DNA from: Gemmatimonadota bacterium
GTDB taxonomy: Bacteria > Gemmatimonadota > Gemmatimonadetes > Gemmatimonadales > Gemmatimonadaceae
Assembly (NCBI GenBank): GCA_016194585.1
Contig: JACQBG010000012.1
Location: 1 to 64,000, forward strand
Reading direction: 5' to 3'
Length of the DNA stretch: 64,000 nucleotides
The notes under the pieces are model-generated. The model was not told where the DNA came from, ran no database searches, and worked only from the letters and a program-made list of their open reading frames with translations. Within the stretch, counting starts at the first letter, position 1, and the number at the start of each line of letters is the position of its first letter. Position numbers and translations under genes: made by a program. Of this stretch, positions 26,766 through 49,312 are shown piece by piece.

Positions 26766-27812
26766 ATGCGCCGTCACACCCTGCTCCTCCCGCTCGTCCT
26801 CGGCACGCTCGCCGCCCCCCGGGCCGGGGCCGCCCAGCAGCCCGGACTCGTCGTGCTCAACAAGAGCGAGGCGACGGCGTCGATCATCTCGCTCGCCGAC
26901 GGCCGCACCGTGGCGACGATGCCGGTGGGAGACGGCCCGCACGAGATCGCCGTGTCGCCCGACGGGCGGTGGGCGATGGCGTCGAACTATGGCGGCACCA
27001 CCCCGGGGCATTCGCTCACGCTGCTCGACCTGCGCGCGCGGACGGCCGTGCGGACGATCGAGCTCGGTGAATACAAGCGCCCGCACGGCATCGCCTGGCT
27101 CCCCGACGGCAAGCGCGTGGTGGTGACGAGCGAGCTCGCGCAGGCGGTGTTCGTCGTCGAGGCGGCCACGGGGAAGATCGAGAAGGCGATCAGCACGGGG
27201 GTCGGGGGCACGCATCTGCTCGTCCTGTCGAAGGACGGCAAGCGGGTGTGGACGTCGAACATCTTCTCGGGCTCGAACTCGCTGCTCGATCTCGAGAAGG
27301 GGGTGCTCGTGAAGACGGCGCCGAACGGCAAGGGGCCCGAGGCGATCGACCTCTCCCCCGACGGGCGCGAGCTGTGGACCGCGGACCGTCCGCTCAACCG
27401 CATCACGATCCTCGATGCGAACACGCTCGACTCGATCGCCGCGTGGCCGAGCGGGCAGTTCCCCAACCGTCTGCATTTCACCCCCGACGGCCAGACGGTG
27501 CTCCAGTCGAACGCTCAGTCGAGCACGGTGGGCGTGTACGACGCGAAGAGCCGGAAGCTCCTCGGCAACATCGAGTTCCCCTACGACGAAGCGCTCGGCA
27601 AGCCGACGGTGCTCACGCAGTTCGGCCGCTCGGCGACGCCGCTCGGCATCCTCATCGCGCCGGATGGGAAGCGGGCGTGGGTCGCGCTGGCGGCCCACGA
27701 CCGGCTCGCCGAAGTGGACATCGCGACGCGGAAGGTCGTGCGCACGATCACGGCCGGACGTGAGCCGGATGGGATGGCGTACGTGCCGGACATCGGCGCG
27801 GGCAAGCCGTGA
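26766..27812 (+). CDS. Exported YVTN/YncE-type beta-propeller protein
   Basis: A 348-residue protein with a signal peptide (MRRHTLLLPLVLGTLAAPRAGAAQ) and seven-blade-type repeats of about 40 residues. Repeat hallmarks include GDGPHEIAVSPDGRWAMASN, YKRPHGIAWLPDGKRVVVTS, GKGPEAIDLSPDGRELWTAD, FPNRLHFTPDGQTVLQSN and GREPDGMAYVPD. These propellers are usually periplasmic or surface binding proteins; no enzyme residues can be named. ACGGAG is a good ribosome binding site five bases before the ATG. Divergent from the other propeller gene and 31 bases before the GNAT gene. Confidence 0.85.
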   Translation: MRRHTLLLPLVLGTLAAPRAGAAQQPGLVVLNKSEATASIISLADGRTVATMPVGDGPHEIAVSPDGRWAMASNYGGTTPGHSLTLLDLRARTAVRTIELGEYKRPHGIAWLPDGKRVVVTSELAQAVFVVEAATGKIEKAISTGVGGTHLLVLSKDGKRVWTSNIFSGSNSLLDLEKGVLVKTAPNGKGPEAIDLSPDGRELWTADRPLNRITILDANTLDSIAAWPSGQFPNRLHFTPDGQTVLQSNAQSSTVGVYDAKSRKLLGNIEFPYDEALGKPTVLTQFGRSATPLGILIAPDGKRAWVALAAHDRLAEVDIATRKVVRTITAGREPDGMAYVPDIGAGKP

Positions 27813-38164: not shown

Positions 38165-39544
38165 TCAGCCATCGCCCAGCGCCGCGAGCAGCTCGGGCCC
38201 GGTCCTGGTGATGTCGCCGGCGCCGATCGTCAGGACGACGTCTCCCTCGCGCACGCCCCCGGCCAGCGCCGCCGCCGCGTCGCCACGGGCGCCGCGCCAC
38301 GCCGGCGCCTTCCCCGCGCGCGCCATGTCGTCGGCGATGAGCGCACTCGTCACGCCGGCCATGGGCTGCTCGCGCGCCGGATAGATGTCGGCGAGGTAGA
38401 CCACGTCGGCCGCGCCGAGTGCCTCGGCGAACGCCCCATGGAAGTCGCGGGTGCGCGAGAAGAGGTGCGGTTGGAATGCGACGACGAGCCGCCGGCCACC
38501 GAAGGCGTCGCGCGCCGCGGCGAGCGTCGCCTGGATCTCGGTGGGATGGTGCGCGTAATCGTCGATCACCAGCACCCCCTTCCGCTCCCCGAGCCGCTGG
38601 AACCGCCGCTCGGCGCCGACGAAACGCGCGAGGCCGTCGCGCATCTTGTCCACGGTGAGTCCCCAGGTGCCCAGCCCCACGGCGAGCGCGGCCAGCGCGT
38701 TGCGCACGTTGTGGTCGCCGGGCACGCCGAGCGTCACCTCGCCCAAGGCCTTGCCGTCGAACGTCACGGTGAAGCGCGAGGCGCTGCCGTCATGGCGCAC
38801 ATCGCGCGCGACGAGCCGCGCGTCGGGGCTCGTCAGGCCGTAGCGCACCACCTCCGCCGACGGAGGCGTGGGGAGCGCGTTCGCGTGAGGGTCGTCGGCA
38901 CAGAGCACGATCCACCGCGCGCCGCGCACGTACTGCGCGAAGGCGCCACGGATGTCGTCGAGGTCGCGGTAGATGTCGAGGTGGTCGGCCTCGATGTTGG
39001 TGACGACGGCCACGTCGGGGGAGAGCGCGAGGAAGCTGCGGTCGTATTCGTCGGCTTCGACGACGAACACTTCGTCGGCCCCCTCGCTGAGATTCCCGCG
39101 CCACGCGGTGACGCGCGCGCCGACCACGCCCGTCGCGTCGATGCCGCCCGCCTTGAGCGCCTCGGTGGTCATCACGGTCGTCGTGCTCTTGCCGTGCGTG
39201 CCGGCGACGCCCACCAGTTGGCCGCCCGCCGTGGCTTCGGCCAGCGCCTCGGCGCGGCGGATCACCGGCACGCCGCGCTCTCGCGCGCGCTCGAGTTCCG
39301 GATGGTGCTTGGGGATGGCGCTCGAGACGACCAGCGCGCGATGTCCGTCGACGTGCGCCGGATCGTGTCCGCGGAGCGCGGCGATGCCGAGCGCGGCGAG
39401 ATCGCCCGCACCCTCGGGATGCTGGTCGCAGCCGGTGACCGCGGCGCCGCGGCGCGCGCACAGTTCCGCGAGCGCGCTCATGCCGGCGCCGGCGATGCCG
39501 ACGAAGTGGATCGGGCGAGGGTCGGTGGGATCGATCAGCGGCAT
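38165..39544 (-). CDS. murC: UDP-N-acetylmuramate-L-alanine ligase
   Basis: A Mur ligase of 459 residues adding L-Ala to UDP-MurNAc. The N-terminal Rossmann start IHFVGIAGAGMSALAEL is MurC-specific. The ATP loop is GVAGTHGKSTTT, the central-domain block is EADEYDRSFLALSP (MurC signature), and the C-terminal domain has DDYAHHPTEIQATL and FQPHLFSRT. ATG at 39544, 14 bases after the murG stop. In many genera murB and ddl follow murC; here ftsQ follows directly. Confidence 0.97.
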   Translation of the reverse strand: MPLIDPTDPRPIHFVGIAGAGMSALAELCARRGAAVTGCDQHPEGAGDLAALGIAALRGHDPAHVDGHRALVVSSAIPKHHPELERARERGVPVIRRAEALAEATAGGQLVGVAGTHGKSTTTVMTTEALKAGGIDATGVVGARVTAWRGNLSEGADEVFVVEADEYDRSFLALSPDVAVVTNIEADHLDIYRDLDDIRGAFAQYVRGARWIVLCADDPHANALPTPPSAEVVRYGLTSPDARLVARDVRHDGSASRFTVTFDGKALGEVTLGVPGDHNVRNALAALAVGLGTWGLTVDKMRDGLARFVGAERRFQRLGERKGVLVIDDYAHHPTEIQATLAAARDAFGGRRLVVAFQPHLFSRTRDFHGAFAEALGAADVVYLADIYPAREQPMAGVTSALIADDMARAGKAPAWRGARGDAAAALAGGVREGDVVLTIGAGDITRTGPELLAALGDG

Positions 39545-39558
39545 GTGTCGGATGATAG

Positions 39559-40665
39559 CTAGCGGCGCGCGCCCTGCGTCGCGGCGACGAGGCGCACGAT
39601 GTGCTGCGCGATGTCGACGGCGGCGTGCGGCCGCGCCCGGGCGCGCGCGCCGCGGGCCAGCGCCGCGAGGCGCGCCGGGTCGTCGAGCAGCGAGCGCACC
39701 AGCGCGTCGAGCCGCGCCGGCGTGAGGTCGCGCTGGGCGAGATGCACCGCGGCACCCGCCGCCTCGAGCGTCGTCGCGTTGGCCGTCTGGTGGTCCTGCG
39801 CCGCCGTGGGCAGCGGGCAGATGACCATCGGCACTCCCCACGCGCACAGCTCGGACGTGCTCATCATGCCGCCGCGCGCGAGCGCGAGGTCGCTCGCCGC
39901 GAACGCGTCGGCGATGGGGGAGAGATACGGCACGACGCGCACGTCGGCGCGATCGAACTGACGGAACGCGTCGTACTGCCCCTTCCCCGTCGCCCAGATG
40001 ACGCAGAGCGACGGCGGCAGCCCCTGCTGCACCCACGCCGCCACCACCTGGTTGATGGCGCGCGCTCCCTGGCTCCCGCCGAACACGAGGAGCACGCGCG
40101 CCCCCGCCGGAAAGCCCCACTTCGCGCGCGCCACCGCGGGATCGGGACGGATGTCCGGGGGCGGCTCGATGGGGTTCCCCGTGTCGCGATACACGCACGC
40201 GCCCTTCGGCAGGAACTTCGTCGCTTCAGGGAAGCCGAGGTACGCCTCCACGGAGAAGCGGCAGAGGAGCCGCGCCGCGATCCCCGGATGGCTGTCGCCG
40301 ATGTGCTGCACCACCGGCACGCCGTGGGCCCACGCCCACGCGAGCGCGGCGCCGCTCGCGTACCCGCCCGTGCCCACGACGATGCTCGGCGCGACCTCAC
40401 GCCCGATGCGCCCCATCGCCGCCCACGCCGTGAACGCTCCGCGCAGCGTGCGCCAGTTGCGCCACACCTTCGGCCGGTAGAGCGGATGCAGGTCGAGCAG
40501 CGTGTGCGGGAACTCCGTGCGCGGCAGCACGTCGGCCTCGATGCCGCGGCGCGCGCCGACGAAATGCGGTCGGATGGAGGGATCGAGCCGGACGAGCGCC
40601 CGCGCGATGGCGAGCCCCGGGTAGAGATGTCCGCCGGTGCCGCCACCGGCGACGATGACGTTCAC
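39559..40665 (-). CDS. murG: Lipid II synthase MurG (UDP-GlcNAc transferase)
   Basis: A 368-residue GT28 glycosyltransferase that adds GlcNAc to lipid I at the inner membrane. The N-terminal G loop is VIVAGGGTGGHLYPGLAIA; further blocks are GTGGYASGAALAWAW, the second G loop VFGGSQGARAINQVV and the UDP-GlcNAc-binding ARGGMMSTSELCAWGVP and PLPTAAQDHQTANA. GTG start overlaps the ftsW stop by four bases. Confidence 0.96.
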   Translation of the reverse strand: MNVIVAGGGTGGHLYPGLAIARALVRLDPSIRPHFVGARRGIEADVLPRTEFPHTLLDLHPLYRPKVWRNWRTLRGAFTAWAAMGRIGREVAPSIVVGTGGYASGAALAWAWAHGVPVVQHIGDSHPGIAARLLCRFSVEAYLGFPEATKFLPKGACVYRDTGNPIEPPPDIRPDPAVARAKWGFPAGARVLLVFGGSQGARAINQVVAAWVQQGLPPSLCVIWATGKGQYDAFRQFDRADVRVVPYLSPIADAFAASDLALARGGMMSTSELCAWGVPMVICPLPTAAQDHQTANATTLEAAGAAVHLAQRDLTPARLDALVRSLLDDPARLAALARGARARARPHAAVDIAQHIVRLVAATQGARR

Positions 40666-41858
40666 CGCGCCGCTCCCAGCGGATCGCTCGCGCCTTCGCC
40701 GATCACCCGTTCTTTCGTGCTCCCGATGTTGACGAGGATCCCGGTCATCAGCATCGAGAGGATCAAATTCGAACGACCGTACGAAATGAAGGGGAGCGTC
40801 AGCCCCGTCGTCGGGAGCAGCCCCGTGACGACGCCGATGTGCAGGTAGGCCGTGACGATCATCGTCACCGTGAGGCCGATGGCGACGAGCTGCAGGAACG
40901 GCGAGCGCGCCTGGCGCGCGATGCGGAAGCCGAGCCAGCCCCAGAGCGCGTAGAGGAGGATGAGCACCGTCAGCCCCACGAACCCCCACTCCTCGCCGAT
41001 GCTCCCGCCGATGAAGTCGTCGTACGACAGCGGCAGGAAGCCGTGCTGCTGCCGCCCCTCCCCGAAGCCGGCGCCGAACCAGCCCCCGGAACCGACGGCG
41101 ATGAGCGACTGGTCGAGCTGGTAGTTCACCTTGGCGTGCGCCTGCCCCGCCATGTCGGCGAAGCCCATGATGCGTTCCATCACGTACTGCAGTCGCTGCG
41201 TCTCGCGCAGGAGGATGGGCGAGAGGACGGCCCCGAGGAACACGAAGTGCCCGATGCGCGCCCCCGCCGCGAAGACGATGATCGCCATCTGCAGCAGGTA
41301 GAAGAGCACGGTCGAGAGGTCGGGCTCGAGCGCCGCCGTGAGCGCCAGCGCGCCGACGACGAGGAGGATCGGGAGCAGTCCCTTGGAGAGCCGGCGGAGC
41401 TGCTCCCCCTTCTTCACGACCAGCATCGCCGTCCACACGATGACGGCCAGCTTCGCGAACTCGCTCGGCTGGATGGAGCCGCGGAAGAGATAGCGGCGCG
41501 CCCCGAGGATCGGCGGCGCGATCGCCTTCGTGAAGGGGAGCACCGTGAGGAGCATGAGGAAGAGGGCGAGCCCCATCACGTGCCATGCGTACTTGCGCCA
41601 CAGGTCGGCGTCGGCCTTCGCGGCGATGGCGAAGCACACCATCCCCACGGCGACGCCGGAGAGCTGCTTGAGCAGGAAGTAGGCGCTGTCCTTGCCGTCC
41701 TGGATCGCCTCGAACGCGCTCGCGCTGTAGAGCGTGGCGAGGCCGAAGGCGAGGAGCACGGCGGTCACGAGGATGAGCGCGCGCGCCTCGAGGCCGATGC
41801 GCCAGCGGTCGCGCGGCGCGGCGGCGGCACCCAGGGCGGGCATCGTCGCGGCGGTCAT
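40662..41858 (-). CDS. ftsW: SEDS peptidoglycan polymerase FtsW
   Basis: A 398-residue membrane protein with about ten helices. SEDS blocks visible: GARRYLFRGSIQPSEFAKLA, ALEPDLSTVLFYLLQMA, FGEGRQQHGFLPLSYDDFI and TGLTLPFISYGRSNLI. It polymerises lipid II at the septum together with the FtsI transpeptidase. ATG overlaps the stop of the frame carrying the murD C-terminus, supporting that frame as the genuine one. Confidence 0.96.
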   Translation of the reverse strand: MTAATMPALGAAAAPRDRWRIGLEARALILVTAVLLAFGLATLYSASAFEAIQDGKDSAYFLLKQLSGVAVGMVCFAIAAKADADLWRKYAWHVMGLALFLMLLTVLPFTKAIAPPILGARRYLFRGSIQPSEFAKLAVIVWTAMLVVKKGEQLRRLSKGLLPILLVVGALALTAALEPDLSTVLFYLLQMAIIVFAAGARIGHFVFLGAVLSPILLRETQRLQYVMERIMGFADMAGQAHAKVNYQLDQSLIAVGSGGWFGAGFGEGRQQHGFLPLSYDDFIGGSIGEEWGFVGLTVLILLYALWGWLGFRIARQARSPFLQLVAIGLTVTMIVTAYLHIGVVTGLLPTTGLTLPFISYGRSNLILSMLMTGILVNIGSTKERVIGEGASDPLGAAR

Positions 41859-43226
41859 GCCGAGGTGGCGAGGCGCCGGAAGGCGGCCCCGCGCTCTTCA
41901 TAGTTCTTGAACATGTCGAAGCTCGAGCAGGCAGGGGACAGCAGCACCGCGTCGCCCGGCCTCGCGGCCGCGCGCGCGCGCGCCATCACGTCCTCGAATG
42001 ACGATCCGAGCCGCTCGAGCGGCACGTGGCCGCGCAGGTCCTGTTCGATGAGCGGCGCCGCCTCGCCATAGGCGATCACCAGCCGCGCGTGGCGCCGCAA
42101 CGCGTCGAGGAGCGCCGTGTACGGCTCCCCCTTGTGGCGGCCACCGAGCAGCACCACCGCCCTCGAGCCGGTGCGGCATCCCGTGGAAGGTGCGCACTCC
42201 CTGCACGAGGCGAGCGAGCGCGTCCGGCGTCGCATGCGACGGGTCAGCCACCGCGACGGCGAGCGCCGCGGCGAGCACGTTCGCCACGTTATGGTCGCCG
42301 AGGAGCGGGATGTCGGCGCGGTCGAGCAGGTCGTGGCCGAGCAGCGACCAGCGGCGCGGGTCGCTCCCGGGTGCGCCGACCTCGCGACCCGCGCCGCGCG
42401 CGCCACCCGGCATTGAGCCGTCCTCTGCGTCCGCCGCGTCCTCTGCGGTAGACGGGGCCGTTGCGGGTCCCGCGTCTGCACCAACATCCCGCAGCGAGAA
42501 CCGGTACCGCGTCCCCGCCACCCGCGCCGTGCGCGCCATCACCTCGGCGTCGTCGGCGTTCAGAACCCAACGGCTCGCCGGCGTGGCGTTGCGGAAGAGC
42601 CGCATCTTGTCGCCGTAGTACTCGTCGAGTGAGGCGTACCGGTCGAGATGGTCGGGGGCGAGGTTGGTGAGCACGCCCACCGCCGGTGCGAGACTCGTCG
42701 TGTCGTGCAGCTGGAAGCTCGACATCTCGAGCGCGACCCACTCCGGCTGCGGTTCGGCCAGCGCGATCTCGCAGAGCGACGTGCCGATGTTGCCGGCGGC
42801 AACTGATCGCTTGCCCAAGGCAACTAACAAGTGGTGCACGAGCGCCGTGACGGTGGTCTTGCCGTTGGTGCCCGTGATGGCGATGCACCGCGCCCCGGGG
42901 AGGAAGGAGAGTCCGACCTCGACCTCGCTCAGCACCGGCACGCCTCGCGCCCGCGCGCACGCGAGGGGGCGCGCCTCCGGCGGCACCCCGGGGCTCGTCA
43001 CGACCACCGCGGCACGCCCGATGCGCTCGAGATCGTGGCCACCCGCCTCGGCGTCGATCCCGAGCGCCCGCAGGGCGGCCGCCTCGCGCACCACGGCGTC
43101 CGTCGCCGAGCCGTCCGACGCATACACCCGCGCCCCCGCGCGATGCAGCAGCCGCGCCGCCGCCCGGCCGCTCCGCCCCAGGCCGACGACCGCCACCTCC
43201 CCGCGCGTGAGCAGTTCGCGGATCAC
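41855..43226 (-). pseudogene. murD: murD with internal deletion and frameshift
   Basis: The N-terminal frame (GTG 43226, overlapping mraY by four bases) has VAVVGLGRSGRAAARLLHR, ATP loop AITGTNGKTTVTALVHH and LTNLAPDHLDRY. It runs to GVRTFHGMPHRLE at about 42162. MurD should then continue for about 37 residues including the NDSKATN motif before reaching VVLLGGRHKGEPYTAL. Here VVLLGG follows at once, in another frame (junction 42156-42162). That second frame continues correctly to SPACSSFDMFKNYEERG and stops at 41855, overlapping ftsW. So roughly 110 bases, not a multiple of three, are missing. The intact part also carries an extra Ala/Asp/Gly-rich stretch. Either an assembly or read error or a real lesion in an essential gene (D-Glu-adding ligase). 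Confidence 0.88.
42421..42450. repeat. CCTCTGCG-type short repeat inside murD
   Basis: Two CGTCCTCTGCG-like units flank a diverged CCGCCG unit (about 42421-42450). Read on the minus strand they give repeats of GAGGACGC, encoding TAEDAADAEDGS. They sit in an Ala/Pro/Gly/Asp-rich extra segment of about 45 residues in the middle domain, between RYRFSLRDV and RRWSLLGHDLL, where MurD proteins normally have a short loop. It looks like an intergenic-type repeat that entered the gene. Confidence 0.6.
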
Positions 43227-44365
43227 CGCAGCTTCAGCGTCGCGAGTCCGATGAACGCACACAGGATGCCGAGGATCCAGAACCGCACGACCACCTGCGT
43301 CTCGGGCCATCCCTTCAGTTCGAAGTGATGGTGCAGCGGCGCCCGCAGGAACACGCGGTGCTGCTGCGCGTACTCGAGCCCGTGCCGCCGGCGCCGCCAC
43401 TTGAACACCGTGCGCTGGATGAGCACCGAGAACGTCTCGGCGACGAACACCCCTCCGATGAACACGTACAGGAACTCGCTCTTGAGCAGGATCGCGACGA
43501 CGCCGAGGGCGCCGCCGAGGGCGAGCGATCCCGTGTCGCCCATGAAGACCTGCGCCGGGTGCGCGTTGTACCAGAGGAAGCCGATCGCCGCGCCGAACAC
43601 GGCGGTGCAGAAGATCGTCAGCTCGCCGGCGTTCCGGAGATAGAAGAGCTGCAGGTAGTTCGCCGCGTTCACGTTCCCCATCGAGTAGGCGAAGATCGCG
43701 AAGGTCCCCATCGCGATGGCCATGAGCCCGGTCGCGAGGCCGTCGAGTCCGTCGGTGAGGTTCACGGCGTTGCTCGTCGCCGTCATCACGAAGGTCACGA
43801 AGGGGACGTACACCCAGGCGAGGCCGATCGTCGCCGGCACGATCAGCATCGACTTCGCGAACGGCACCGTGGTCGAGGCGCCCGGAAGCTGGTTGAGCGG
43901 GAACTTCCAGATGTAGATCGAGAGCGCGAGGCCGCAGATGACCTGCCCGGCGAGCTTGTAGCGCTCGACGAGCCCGCGGTTGGCCTCACCGCGCCGCTTC
44001 TGCACGAGCTTGAGATAGTCGTCGAGGAACCCGATGCCGCCCATCCAGAACATGACGGCGAGGGCGAGCCAGACGTACCGGTTGTCGAGGCGCATCCAGA
44101 GCAGCGTCGGGACGAGCGTCGAGACGAGGATGATGAGGCCGCCCATCGTCGGCGTCGTCCCCTTCCCCGCGTGCGTGTCGGGCGTGCCCTCGCGCACCAC
44201 CTGGTGGATCTGCATCGTCCGCAGCCAGCGGAGAATCATCGGCCCGACGATGAACGCGACGAGCAGCGCCGTCACGGCGGCGCCCGCCGCCCGGAAGCTG
44301 ATGTACCGGAAGACGTTGAACGGACTGAAGTGCTCCCGGAGGGGATAGAGCAGGTAGTAGAGCAT
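43223..44365 (-). CDS. mraY: Phospho-MurNAc-pentapeptide transferase MraY
   Basis: A 380-residue polytopic enzyme forming lipid I from UDP-MurNAc-pentapeptide and undecaprenyl phosphate. Catalytic blocks: GTPTMGGLIIL-like (here GKGTTPTMGGLIIL), GFLDDYLKL with the Asp pair, NAVNLTDGLDGLA and the C-terminal HHHFELKGWPE. ATG at 44365, two bases after the murF stop. Confidence 0.97.
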   Translation of the reverse strand: MLYYLLYPLREHFSPFNVFRYISFRAAGAAVTALLVAFIVGPMILRWLRTMQIHQVVREGTPDTHAGKGTTPTMGGLIILVSTLVPTLLWMRLDNRYVWLALAVMFWMGGIGFLDDYLKLVQKRRGEANRGLVERYKLAGQVICGLALSIYIWKFPLNQLPGASTTVPFAKSMLIVPATIGLAWVYVPFVTFVMTATSNAVNLTDGLDGLATGLMAIAMGTFAIFAYSMGNVNAANYLQLFYLRNAGELTIFCTAVFGAAIGFLWYNAHPAQVFMGDTGSLALGGALGVVAILLKSEFLYVFIGGVFVAETFSVLIQRTVFKWRRRRHGLEYAQQHRVFLRAPLHHHFELKGWPETQVVVRFWILGILCAFIGLATLKLR

Positions 44366-44367
44366 CG

Positions 44368-45732
44368 CTAGACCGGTTGGGTGGCCCATGCCGTGAGCAA
44401 GGGCACGAGTCGTTCGAGCTTCACGCCGCGCGAAGCCTTGAGCAGGATCGCCGCGTCGGCCGCGAGGCGCGGCGCGAGCAGCGGCCACAGATCGTCCACG
44501 TCGCTCGCCGTCACGACGCGCGCGTCGCCGGCGGCGAGTGCGGTGAGCGCGGGCGCGAACTCGCCGATCCCGGCCACGACATCTGCCCCCGAATCGAGCG
44601 CGGCGCGCGCGATCTCGAGGTGGGCGCGCTCCGCCGCCGCGCCCAGCTCGCGCATCGTGCCGAGCACGGCCACGCGCTGGCGCCCCGCGCCGACCTTCGC
44701 CAACAGCGCGAGCGCGGCGCGCGCCGACCCGGGGTTCGCGTTGTACGCGTCGTGCACGAGCAGCGCCGCGCCGAGCGGCGAGACGGCCGAGCGCATCCCG
44801 GGCATCGCGGCGACATCGAGCGAGGCGATGGCGGCCGCCGTCTCGTCGTCGAACAGTCCGCATTCGCGCGCCGCCGCGATGGCGAGCATCGCGTTGCGGA
44901 GGTTGTGCTCTCCCTTGAGCGGCACGTCGACGTGTGCCGCCTCGAGGTCGAGCCAGCCACTGCCGTCCGCGTGCAGGCCATACGCCACGGCCATCACGTC
45001 CCCCGCGCCGAGGCCGGCCGTGACGACGCGCCGCGCCCGCTGCCGCGCTTCGGCGACGAGCGCCGCCTCGTCGGCGGGCACGATCGCCGCCGCCACGCCA
45101 TCGAACAACGACGCCTCCTCGCGCAGCACCCCCGCGAGATCGCCGAACCCCTCGAGATGCTCCTCCTGCACGGTCGTCACCAGCGCGAGGTCGGGCTCGA
45201 CGATGTCGCGAAGCAGTGCGATCTCCCCGGGCATGTTCGTCCCGACCTCGATCACGGCGACGTCGGCGTCGTCGGGGAGCGCGAGCAGCGTGAGCGGCAC
45301 CCCCACCTGATTGTTCAGGTTGCCGCTCGTGGCGTGCACGGTGAGCCGCGCGCCGAGCGCGGCGCGGACGAGTTCCTTGGTGCTCGTCTTGCCGTTCGAC
45401 CCGCCGATGGCGATGACGGGACGCCCCCACGCGCGGCGCCGGTAGCGGGCGAGCGCGCCGAGCGCGTGCAGGGTGTTCTCCACGTCGTACACGGGCACGC
45501 CGAGGCCGGCGGCGCGGCGCGCGTCGTGCACGACGACGGCCACCGCACCCTGGGCCACGGCCTGCGCGAGGAAGTCGTGCGCGTTGAACCGCTCGCCGGC
45601 AAGCGCCACGAACAGGTCTCCGGCCGCGACGGTGCGCGTGTCGGTCGAGATGCCACCGATCGCGCGATCGTCGCGCGGACCGCCACCGAGGGCGTCCGCC
45701 ACGCGCGCGAGCGTCCAGAAGCCGTGCGTCAT
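44368..45732 (-). CDS. murF: UDP-MurNAc-tripeptide-D-Ala-D-Ala ligase
   Basis: A 454-residue Mur ligase adding D-Ala-D-Ala. N-terminal domain GGISTDTRTVAAGDLFVAL, ATP loop AIGGSNGKTSTKELV, central EVGTNMPGEI and EEHLEGFG, and C-terminal DAYNANPGSARAALALL, the MurF signature. ATG overlaps the murE stop by four bases. Confidence 0.97.
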   Translation of the reverse strand: MTHGFWTLARVADALGGGPRDDRAIGGISTDTRTVAAGDLFVALAGERFNAHDFLAQAVAQGAVAVVVHDARRAAGLGVPVYDVENTLHALGALARYRRRAWGRPVIAIGGSNGKTSTKELVRAALGARLTVHATSGNLNNQVGVPLTLLALPDDADVAVIEVGTNMPGEIALLRDIVEPDLALVTTVQEEHLEGFGDLAGVLREEASLFDGVAAAIVPADEAALVAEARQRARRVVTAGLGAGDVMAVAYGLHADGSGWLDLEAAHVDVPLKGEHNLRNAMLAIAAARECGLFDDETAAAIASLDVAAMPGMRSAVSPLGAALLVHDAYNANPGSARAALALLAKVGAGRQRVAVLGTMRELGAAAERAHLEIARAALDSGADVVAGIGEFAPALTALAAGDARVVTASDVDDLWPLLAPRLAADAAILLKASRGVKLERLVPLLTAWATQPV

Positions 45733-47210
45733 GCGCCCGCTCCCGCGCGCTCGGCCATCACCTCGGCCACGATCTCGCGCTCGTCGAAGTGGAACTTCTC
45801 GGTGCCGCGCACCTGGTAGGTCTCGTGCCCCTTGCCGGCGAGCAGTACCACGTCGCGCGCCGGATCGGCGAGCGCGATGGCGCGGGCGATCGCCGCGCGG
45901 CGGTCCTCGATGCGGTCGTAACTCCCCGCCGGCAGCGGCGCGACGATGTCGTCGATGATGCGCGCCGGATCCTCGGTGCGCGGATTGTCGCTCGTCACGA
46001 CGAGCCGGTCGGCGTGGGCACGGGCCATCTCGCCCATGAGCGGGCGCTTGCCGCGGTCGCGGTCGCCGCCCGCCCCGAAGACGACGATGAGTTCTCCCGG
46101 CGTGAACGGGCGGAGCGCCGTGAGCGCGCGCGCCAGCGCGTCGGGGGTGTGCGCGTAGTCGCGCAACACGGTCGGCCGTTCGCCGACGATCTCGAGGCGG
46201 CCCGGTACCTGCGGCATCGTCGAGAGCCGCGCGCCGATGGTCGCCGCGTCCACGCCGAGCGCGTGCGCGGCCGCGGCGGAGCCGACCGCGTTGGCGACGT
46301 TGAAGTCGCCGATGAGCGGGAGATGCACGTCGGCCGTGCCGCGGGGCGTGACGAGGCGCCACGCGCTCCCGCGCGGCGTGAACGTCACCAGCTCGGCGCG
46401 CACGTCGGCGTCTTCCCCGGCACCGAACGACACGCGGCGCGGCGCATGCGGCAGCGCGCGCCACGCGGGATCGTCGGCGTTCGCCACGACGGCGCCATCC
46501 GGCGTGAGGTACGAGACGAGCGCGGCCTTCGCGGCGAAGTACCGCTCCATCGTGCCGTGATAGTCGAGATGGTCGCGCGTGAGGTTGGTGAACACGGCGG
46601 CGTCGAACGCGAGCCCCTCCACGCGGCGCTGGTCGAGCGAGTGGCTCGACACCTCCATCGCGACGGTGCGCACGCCGGCGTCGGCGAGCACACGCAGCAC
46701 GCGCTGCAGCTCGACGGGGCCGGGCGTCGTGAGCCCGCCACCGCCATCGACCTCCTCTCCAGCGCTCCCGACGAGCACGCCGAGCGTGCCGATGCTCGCG
46801 CTGCGAGCCGCGGGCGCGTCGAGCAGGTGGCGCAGCATCCCCACCGTCGTCGTCTTGCCGTTCGTACCGGTGACGGCGACGAGCCGCATGCCCTGCGCCG
46901 GCTCGCCGAAGAACGCCGCGGCGGCGATGGCCGCGGCGCGCCGCCCGTTGCGCACGACGATCGACGGCAGCGCGGTGCGCGAGGCGTCCTCGGCGATCGC
47001 CACGCTGGCGCCCGCGGCCGCGGCCGCGTCGAGGAACTCGTGCCCGTCGCGCGCCGACCCGCGCACGGCGACGAACAGCGCACCGGGCCGCACCGAGCGG
47101 CTGTCGTCGGTGATCGCGCCGATCGCCGCCGGCAGCGCGCCACGCACCTCGACGAGGAGTCCGGCGCGTTCGAGCGCGTCGATGAGACGTTGCGTGGCGA
47201 CGCCCGTCAC
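45729..47210 (-). CDS. murE: UDP-MurNAc-tripeptide synthetase MurE (meso-DAP type)
   Basis: A 493-residue Mur ligase adding the third residue. ATP loop VAVTGTNGKTTTVGMLRH, EVSSHSLDQRRV and TNLTRDHLDYHGTMERYFAAK are present. The C-terminal substrate motif SDNPRTEDP is the DNPR form that recognises meso-diaminopimelate, so the wall is predicted to be DAP type rather than Lys type. The GTG start overlaps the ftsI stop by four bases. Confidence 0.96.
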   Translation of the reverse strand: MTGVATQRLIDALERAGLLVEVRGALPAAIGAITDDSRSVRPGALFVAVRGSARDGHEFLDAAAAAGASVAIAEDASRTALPSIVVRNGRRAAAIAAAAFFGEPAQGMRLVAVTGTNGKTTTVGMLRHLLDAPAARSASIGTLGVLVGSAGEEVDGGGGLTTPGPVELQRVLRVLADAGVRTVAMEVSSHSLDQRRVEGLAFDAAVFTNLTRDHLDYHGTMERYFAAKAALVSYLTPDGAVVANADDPAWRALPHAPRRVSFGAGEDADVRAELVTFTPRGSAWRLVTPRGTADVHLPLIGDFNVANAVGSAAAAHALGVDAATIGARLSTMPQVPGRLEIVGERPTVLRDYAHTPDALARALTALRPFTPGELIVVFGAGGDRDRGKRPLMGEMARAHADRLVVTSDNPRTEDPARIIDDIVAPLPAGSYDRIEDRRAAIARAIALADPARDVVLLAGKGHETYQVRGTEKFHFDEREIVAEVMAERAGAGA

Positions 47211-49312
47211 GGCGCGCGCATCAGGTGGACGGTCGTCCCCGCCGGCGCGACCGTGCCGGCGTCGGGCGACGTGGCCGCGGCGTCGCCCACCCCCGACGCA
47301 TCGAGCGACACGCGGAATCCGGCGCGGTGCAGCGCGTACACGGCGCGCCGCAGCGGCAAACCGCGCACCGACGGCACGGCGCGCGCCGCGACCACCGCGG
47401 GGGGCGCCTTCTTCGCCTCGCCGAGGCGGAACACGAAGGGCACGCTCCCCGACGCCACGGAACGCACCAGCGTGTCGCCGCCCTCGAACGCGCTGTCGCC
47501 GTTCGCCGACGACGCGAACGCCTGCGCCGCGCGGTCGCTGCGGGCGACCGGCGCCGTCGGCGTCGCCGCGGCCGTCGCCACCGGCGTCGCGGACGCGGGC
47601 TTGGGCGCCGGCGTGATGCGCGACGAGGCGAGCTCCGCCCGGTCGAGACTCGCGTCGCGCGAGGCGAGCATCGCCTGGATGATCGTCTTCGACACCGGCG
47701 CCGCCGCCTTGCCGCCGTAGATCGACTTCGAGGGGTCGTCGAGCTTCACGAGGATCACGACCTGCGGCTTGTCGGCCGGGAAGAGACCGACGAAGCTCGC
47801 CGTGTACGATCCGTTGACGTACTTGCCGTGCACGGTCCGCTTGGCGGTGCCGGTCTTCCCCGCGATGTCGAACGTCGCGAGGTTCGCCTGTTCCGCCGTG
47901 CCCCCCTCGACCACGCTGCGCAGCAACCCGCGCACCGTGCGCGCCGTCTCCTCGGTCATGACGCGCCGCACGACGCGCCGCGTGTGCGAGTACTGCACCG
48001 TGCCGTCGCTCGCGCGCACTTCCTTCACGATCGCCGGCTCGAGCAGCTCGCCGCCGTTGGCGATCGCCGCGTACGCGGTCGCCAGCTGCAGCGGCGTGAC
48101 GGTGATCGCGTACCCCATCGCCATCGACGCCGGCGTCAGCTTGTCCCACCCCTTCGGCGCGACGAGCCGCCCCGGGCTCTCCCCGGGATACGGCAACCCG
48201 GTCTGCATGCCGAAGCCCATGTCGCGCATGAGCTCGAACTGCTCGCGCGGCGTGAACCGCTGCGCGAACTGCACGATGCCGATGTTGCTCGAGTACTGGA
48301 TCACCTGGGCGAGCGTGAAACTCGTTCCCTTGTGGTCGTCCTCGATGGTGCGGCCGTTGTAGTCCCACTTGCCGCCGTAGGCATTGACGACCTCGTCGAC
48401 GCGCGCCCGGTGCAGATCGAGCAGGCGCGCCGCCGTGAACGGCTTGAGCGTGGAACCGGGCTCGTACGGCTCGGTCAGCGCGGTCGCCACGGTCGACCGC
48501 TGGTCGGCGCGGCGGCTCGCCATCGCGCGCACCTCGCCGCTCGACGGGTCGAGCACGACGATGTCGCCCCCCTTCGCCCCCATCCCCCGCACCGCGTCGT
48601 CGAGCGCGCGCTCGGCGATGTCCTGCAGCTGCTGGTTGATCGTCAGCACGACGGTGTGCCCGGGACGCGCCGCCGTCCCCTCGACCCCCGGGGAGTCGTA
48701 GCGATGCCCCTTCGCGTCTCGCAGCTCGGCGGTCGTGCCGCGCGTGCCGCGCAGCAGCGCGTCGAGCGACTTCTCGAGGCCGTCCACCGGCTCGCCATTC
48801 TCGTCGGCGCGGCCGACGAGGCGACGCAGCCCGTCCGTCGCCGGCGGCACCCGCTCGATGGCCGGCGTCGAGTGCACGCCGCGCACGGCGACGAGCTCCT
48901 GCACGTCGGAGGCGAGGTACGTCCCCGGCAACTCGACCCACTTGTCGGTGGTGTCGACGGCCTTGCGCGCCCACTCTGAAGAGACGCCCACGCGCGCGAG
49001 CACGCGCGCGACGGTCTGCAGACGCACGCGCGCCGCATCGACCGCCTTCGGCTTCGTGGGTGCGCCCCAGACCTCCTTGGGCGCGATCTGCAGCTTCACC
49101 AGCTGCCGGCTCTCGACGAGCACGTTCCCGCTCGCATCGAGGATCCGCCCGCGCGGCGCCGGGAGCGGCGAATCGGCCACCTGCTGTCGCGTGGCGCGGG
49201 CGCGCCACGTGGCGCCGTCGTACAGCTGCACCTTCGCGGCGCGCCCGACGAGCAGGAGGGCGAACGCCAGGAACGCGCCGTGGACGAGCCCGACCCGGCT
49301 AGTGCGGATCAC
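47207..49312 (-). CDS. ftsI: Septal transpeptidase FtsI (class B PBP) with C-terminal PASTA domain
   Basis: A 701-residue bitopic penicillin-binding protein. An N-terminal anchor (VGLVHGAFLAFALLLVG) precedes the PBP dimer domain starting LPAPRGRILDASGNVL. The transpeptidase has SxxK in YEPGSTLKPFT, SxN in QYSSNIGIVQ and KTG in DIAGKTGTAKRT. An Ala/Thr/Pro linker leads to one PASTA-like domain (AVPSVRGLPLRRAVYALHRA), more typical of Gram-positive or sporulation-type PBPs. GTG start lies inside the end of ftsL (14-base overlap). Confidence 0.95.
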   Translation of the reverse strand: MIRTSRVGLVHGAFLAFALLLVGRAAKVQLYDGATWRARATRQQVADSPLPAPRGRILDASGNVLVESRQLVKLQIAPKEVWGAPTKPKAVDAARVRLQTVARVLARVGVSSEWARKAVDTTDKWVELPGTYLASDVQELVAVRGVHSTPAIERVPPATDGLRRLVGRADENGEPVDGLEKSLDALLRGTRGTTAELRDAKGHRYDSPGVEGTAARPGHTVVLTINQQLQDIAERALDDAVRGMGAKGGDIVVLDPSSGEVRAMASRRADQRSTVATALTEPYEPGSTLKPFTAARLLDLHRARVDEVVNAYGGKWDYNGRTIEDDHKGTSFTLAQVIQYSSNIGIVQFAQRFTPREQFELMRDMGFGMQTGLPYPGESPGRLVAPKGWDKLTPASMAMGYAITVTPLQLATAYAAIANGGELLEPAIVKEVRASDGTVQYSHTRRVVRRVMTEETARTVRGLLRSVVEGGTAEQANLATFDIAGKTGTAKRTVHGKYVNGSYTASFVGLFPADKPQVVILVKLDDPSKSIYGGKAAAPVSKTIIQAMLASRDASLDRAELASSRITPAPKPASATPVATAAATPTAPVARSDRAAQAFASSANGDSAFEGGDTLVRSVASGSVPFVFRLGEAKKAPPAVVAARAVPSVRGLPLRRAVYALHRAGFRVSLDASGVGDAAATSPDAGTVAPAGTTVHLMRAP

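Follow-up and report, generated by a model that had tools for sequence, protein, structure and literature searches.

An interrupted murD in an otherwise complete peptide-ligase operon of a Gemmatimonadota bacterium is probably an assembly artefact

MurD is an essential enzyme. In the Escherichia coli protein the D-Glu-binding C-terminal domain spans residues 299-437, and T321 contacts inhibitors at the D-Glu site (PMC3527612), while K319 lies near ADP (PMC8788868). It has also been shown that errors of assembly account for many pseudogenes in bacteria (PMC11017572). We analysed a murD gene in a 64,000-nucleotide window (the whole stretch of DNA under study, positions 1 to 64,000 of contig JACQBG010000012.1) from a Gemmatimonadota bacterium. 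A first-pass annotation of this DNA had described the gene as broken.

The window carries an ordinary set of cell-wall and division genes on the minus strand, between 49.3 and 34.5 kb, in the order FtsI-type penicillin-binding protein, murE, murF, mraY, murD, ftsW, murG, murC, ftsA and ftsZ. Intact genes surround murD on this strand: murF and murE (44374..47252; TIGR01143, E 1e-105, and TIGR01085, E 2e-139), mraY (43223..44386; TIGR00445, E 9e-109), ftsW (40662..41858; TIGR02614, E 4e-85) and murC (38192..39544; TIGR01082, E 2e-131). The gene murG is also present, and the peptide-ligase operon is complete apart from murD. The murD gene itself occupies 43226-41855 and sits in the mraY-murD-ftsW context of canonical MurD. 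Its GTG start at 43226 overlaps the mraY stop (GTGA) and its TGA at 41857-41855 overlaps the ftsW start at 41858 (ATGA), so both gene overlaps reported in the first-pass annotation are present.

Between these ends, the gene is cut at 42162/42160. The 5' part (42162..43226, minus strand, frame A) covers the N-terminal and central domains and the beginning of the C-terminal domain, up to ...GMPHRLE, and matches positions 2-309 of the murD profile TIGR01087 at 43196-42162 (E 5e-66). The reading then passes into another frame, in which the 3' part (41855..42160, minus strand, frame B) begins with AVVLLGGRHKGEPY..., matches profile positions 342-439 at 42160-41867 (E 1e-25) and runs to the TGA. A break with a change of frame thus lies where it had been annotated, and a continuous one-frame match over about positions 2-440 is not found; the profile score of 223 bits, just over the cut-off of 211.95, comes from the N-terminal part alone. 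Neither half contains further stops. The split is far beyond chance, as both halves match murD and the gene is uninterrupted at this place in 16 genus mates.

Alignment with the closest relative, G017 (locus L024), defines the junction (42160..42162, minus strand). Where the relative reads CTCGAA-GTG...CCG-GCGGTGGTG, the murD described here reads CTCGAG-G-GCGGTGGTG. By both DNA and protein alignment, 32 codons (96 nt, encoding VVADRDGVQWIDDSKATNVASTLVAVQGMTRP) of the G017 gene are replaced by a single nucleotide between the same flanks; this leaves the gene 95 bp shorter overall, with 1 bp ambiguous, and shifts the frame. The deletion is therefore real as a feature of the contig, although the earlier figure of about 37 codons was slightly too high. 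Alignments with relatives also bear out that the (N/D)DSKATN motif lies inside the missing stretch and is absent from the locus. The absent piece corresponds approximately to residues 305-338 of E. coli MurD (E. coli numbering). Because it includes the equivalents of K319 and T321, either half, or a frameshifted fusion of the two, would still be without these residues. This bears on the idea that the two halves cooperate, whether as separate peptides or by way of a programmed frameshift. The downstream frame does remain open on the upstream side of the junction (ORF 42487-41855), but about 32 residues, including the beginning of the C-terminal domain and ligand-contacting residues, would stay missing, and no such arrangement occurs in any genus mate; we regard this reading as scarcely credible.

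Upstream of the junction, the MurD central domain carries a lineage-specific in-frame insert (approximately 42390..42480, minus strand) with an arm of a dispersed (GCAGAGGAC)n repeat, whose core lies at 42428-42449. G017 has the insert too, in a murD that is intact in all other respects. Such arms often have inverted partners about 50-340 bp away, and the pattern matches about 50 times in this genome, six times in G017 and not at all in 16 other genus members. No Y1/RAYT-type transposase was found for the repeat. The insert resembles in-frame repeat insertions such as the Rickettsia palindromic elements.

To place the break in context, we turned to related genomes. All 16 genus mates with a murD match carry a full-length gene, uninterrupted over the stretch deleted here. 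We surveyed 151 genomes of the order; in 150, completeness was at least 90% and contamination no more than 5%. Nearly every MurD gene in this survey is full length, and the short versions in G056, G078, G080, G107 and G113 lie at contig edges. The only other break within a contig occurs in G091, a member of another family, in which about 116 bp are lost with a change of frame; murD is intact in three genomes of the genus to which G091 belongs. That break, independent of the one described here, lies on contig C42, at 26781-27656 and downstream (L078 / L084). The G091 deletion starts upstream of the one described here and ends earlier, taking the same motif but sharing no breakpoint. By our estimate, chance would make two deletions of about 100 bp overlap in roughly one case in six when the gene is 1.3 kb long, so the coincidence does not by itself prove a hot spot. 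A genuine recurrent deletion hot spot at this C-terminal motif within the order (G000, G091), tolerated for a time through some bypass of MurD, seems to us very improbable. We examined murC across these genomes as a control and found one break within a contig, in G134 (L087, contig C18, about 30.1 kb), where an 18-bp duplication flanks an 'NN' at the DDYAHHP motif; this is evidently a scaffold stitch, two overlapping contig ends having been set side by side. The other weak murC matches that we checked (G156, G145 and G048) end at contig edges. In-contig breaks in essential Mur ligase genes thus have a background frequency of about 1% for each gene, against which the murD break does not stand out. 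Two genomes that are 92-93% complete, G137 and G060, gave no match to either murD or murC at the thresholds applied, probably because a contig is missing.

The sequence of the two halves bears on the age of the lesion. In a three-way comparison, the protein distance along the window's branch was 0.150 for the N-terminal part and 0.043 for the C-terminal part, and along the G006 branch 0.150 and 0.178; the murD branch distances are in line with those of murE, murG, murC and others. Relative to G017, dN/dS is about 0.20 for the N-terminal and about 0.34 for the C-terminal part. The raised dN/dS and extra stops of a pseudogene in neutral drift are not seen, and both halves were under constraint until at most very recently. 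Nor is splitting common along the 113-kb contig: of 66 non-overlapping loci matched by proteins of two relatives, none is divided over two frames by the query that matches it best. In that tally murD was counted as its larger piece alone, the smaller, at about 296 bp, falling under the 300-bp limit; its two-frame split registered in a separate comparison with the relatives' proteins, some of whose flagged two-frame matches were paralogues or overlapping shadow frames, as judged by eye.

We also searched the genome assembly (3.34 Mb in 50 contigs, 98.3% complete) for a substitute or for the missing piece. A profile search returned no other murD, and the whole-genome search for a second MurD, a MurD2-like protein or a replacing ligase, which had been proposed as a check, was negative. 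Mur-ligase middle domains occur in MurC, MurD, MurE, MurF and one further protein, on contig C23, which looks like FolC from its sequence and an accD-like neighbour, both read by eye. A degenerate pattern for the NDSKATN motif had no match in the whole genome, and the relative's version of the missing piece was not found elsewhere in the assembly. A contig search for a second assembly of the same species returned none, only two genus mates and one distant match.

These searches weigh on the possibility that MurD has been lost for good and is compensated by another enzyme or wall chemistry. Such a reading could draw on the D-Glu branch of the pathway, which is not textbook in this genus: the usual glutamate racemase MurI is absent from all 18 genus genomes (G000-G017), whereas 9 of the 13 members of the order sampled outside the genus have it. 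Since the absence is genus-wide, it is a trait of the lineage and not a response to the murD lesion. Matches resembling D-amino-acid transaminase are found in all 18 genus genomes, 13 of them over the family cut-off, the best in G000, the genome studied here, scoring 270 bits, just below the cut-off of 277. We therefore do not take the absence of MurI to mean that the pathway has changed in this genome; D-Glu, the substrate of MurD, is plausibly still made via the transaminase-like gene, which can account for its supply. A fixed loss is further opposed by the lack of a second MurD or MurD2-like ligase in the genome, the continued constraint on both halves, the intact state of every other murD identified in the genus and the otherwise complete operon, and we consider it very unlikely.

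Taken together, the slow evolution of the halves, the complete operon, the retained source of D-Glu and the absence of other split loci point to either a misassembly or an extremely recent lesion. The latter, our main rival explanation, would be a real deletion in the sampled population or strain; the allele could be lethal, or almost so, and carried by some of the cells, or it could be tolerated beside coexisting intact alleles. A genuine small deletion would leave a clean junction such as this one, which has 1 bp of microhomology and lacks Ns, and G091 carries a different deletion over the same motif. Against this, MurD is essential and single copy here, the lost segment takes the equivalents of E. 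coli residues 305-338, K319 and T321 among them, and a consensus assembly should display the majority allele. We judge a recent deletion improbable. Of the two readings offered in the first-pass annotation, an artefact or a compensated lesion, the artefact is favoured by the negative search for compensation, the lack of decay and the comparable breaks found among sister assemblies, which make this choice probable but do not prove it.

We thus think it most likely that the organism carries an intact, single-copy, canonical murD from which about 95 bp were lost in assembly, in keeping with relatives that lack the lesion and a gene that is not ageing. The missing stretch holds a conserved Mur-ligase motif, and its DNA is locally enriched in short words that related species have in common. 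At these words the assembly graph, of the de Bruijn or scaffold type, could break, and the two flanks would then be joined without the intervening bases, a join that we infer was made by the assembler or scaffolder. This graph-tangle mechanism, the one that we prefer, is plausible, although not specifically supported. Shared 19-mers over the deleted motif occur in about 3% of pairs, as against less than 1% in much of murD, but reach 15% at the 3' SPACSSYDMF motif, which is intact here; cross-species shared words were therefore rejected as the sole cause, the deleted motif being enriched without being the peak. The contig contains no N bases, and no direct repeat of at least 8 bp or duplicated overlap was found around the junction, so the junction bears no direct trace of a faulty join. 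Slippage between direct repeats was rejected because the GTGGTG repeats do not match the junction, which shows 1 bp of microhomology only, and hairpin-driven loss because the matching G017 region folds no better than shuffled sequences (z -0.5).

If the deletion were real, the organism would be surviving without MurD although the rest of its wall pathway is normal, and MurD could no longer be regarded as indispensable. If it is an artefact, the lesson is one of caution, since about 1% of the genomes of this order that are at least 90% complete have an in-contig break per essential Mur ligase gene. Such breaks can pass for gene loss, and completeness scores are blind to them: here, a broken murD still exceeds its family cut-off in an assembly scored at 98.3%, so the score does not reveal the break.

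Compared with known systems, the gene resembles canonical MurD of E. coli (1UAG/2UAG) in its place in the mraY-murD-ftsW-murG-murC order, in its P-loop GTNGKT, HKGE and SPACSS motifs and in the D-Glu-type lysine (K348 equivalent). It differs from the E. coli gene in lacking the equivalent of about residues 305-338, including (N/D)DSKATN, and in its shift of frame. The alternative pathway through MurD2 and MurL is a route for lineages without MurI (PMC8788868), and the present genus is also without MurI; unlike MurD2, which has Arg (PMC8788868), this MurD has the canonical Lys, and its genome holds the transaminase-like gene. The assembly-derived pseudogenes described previously (PMC11017572) cover frameshifts and internal stops as a general class, whereas the present gene has lost about 95 bp with no visible scar. 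As in those cases, an otherwise constrained gene is broken in one assembly only.
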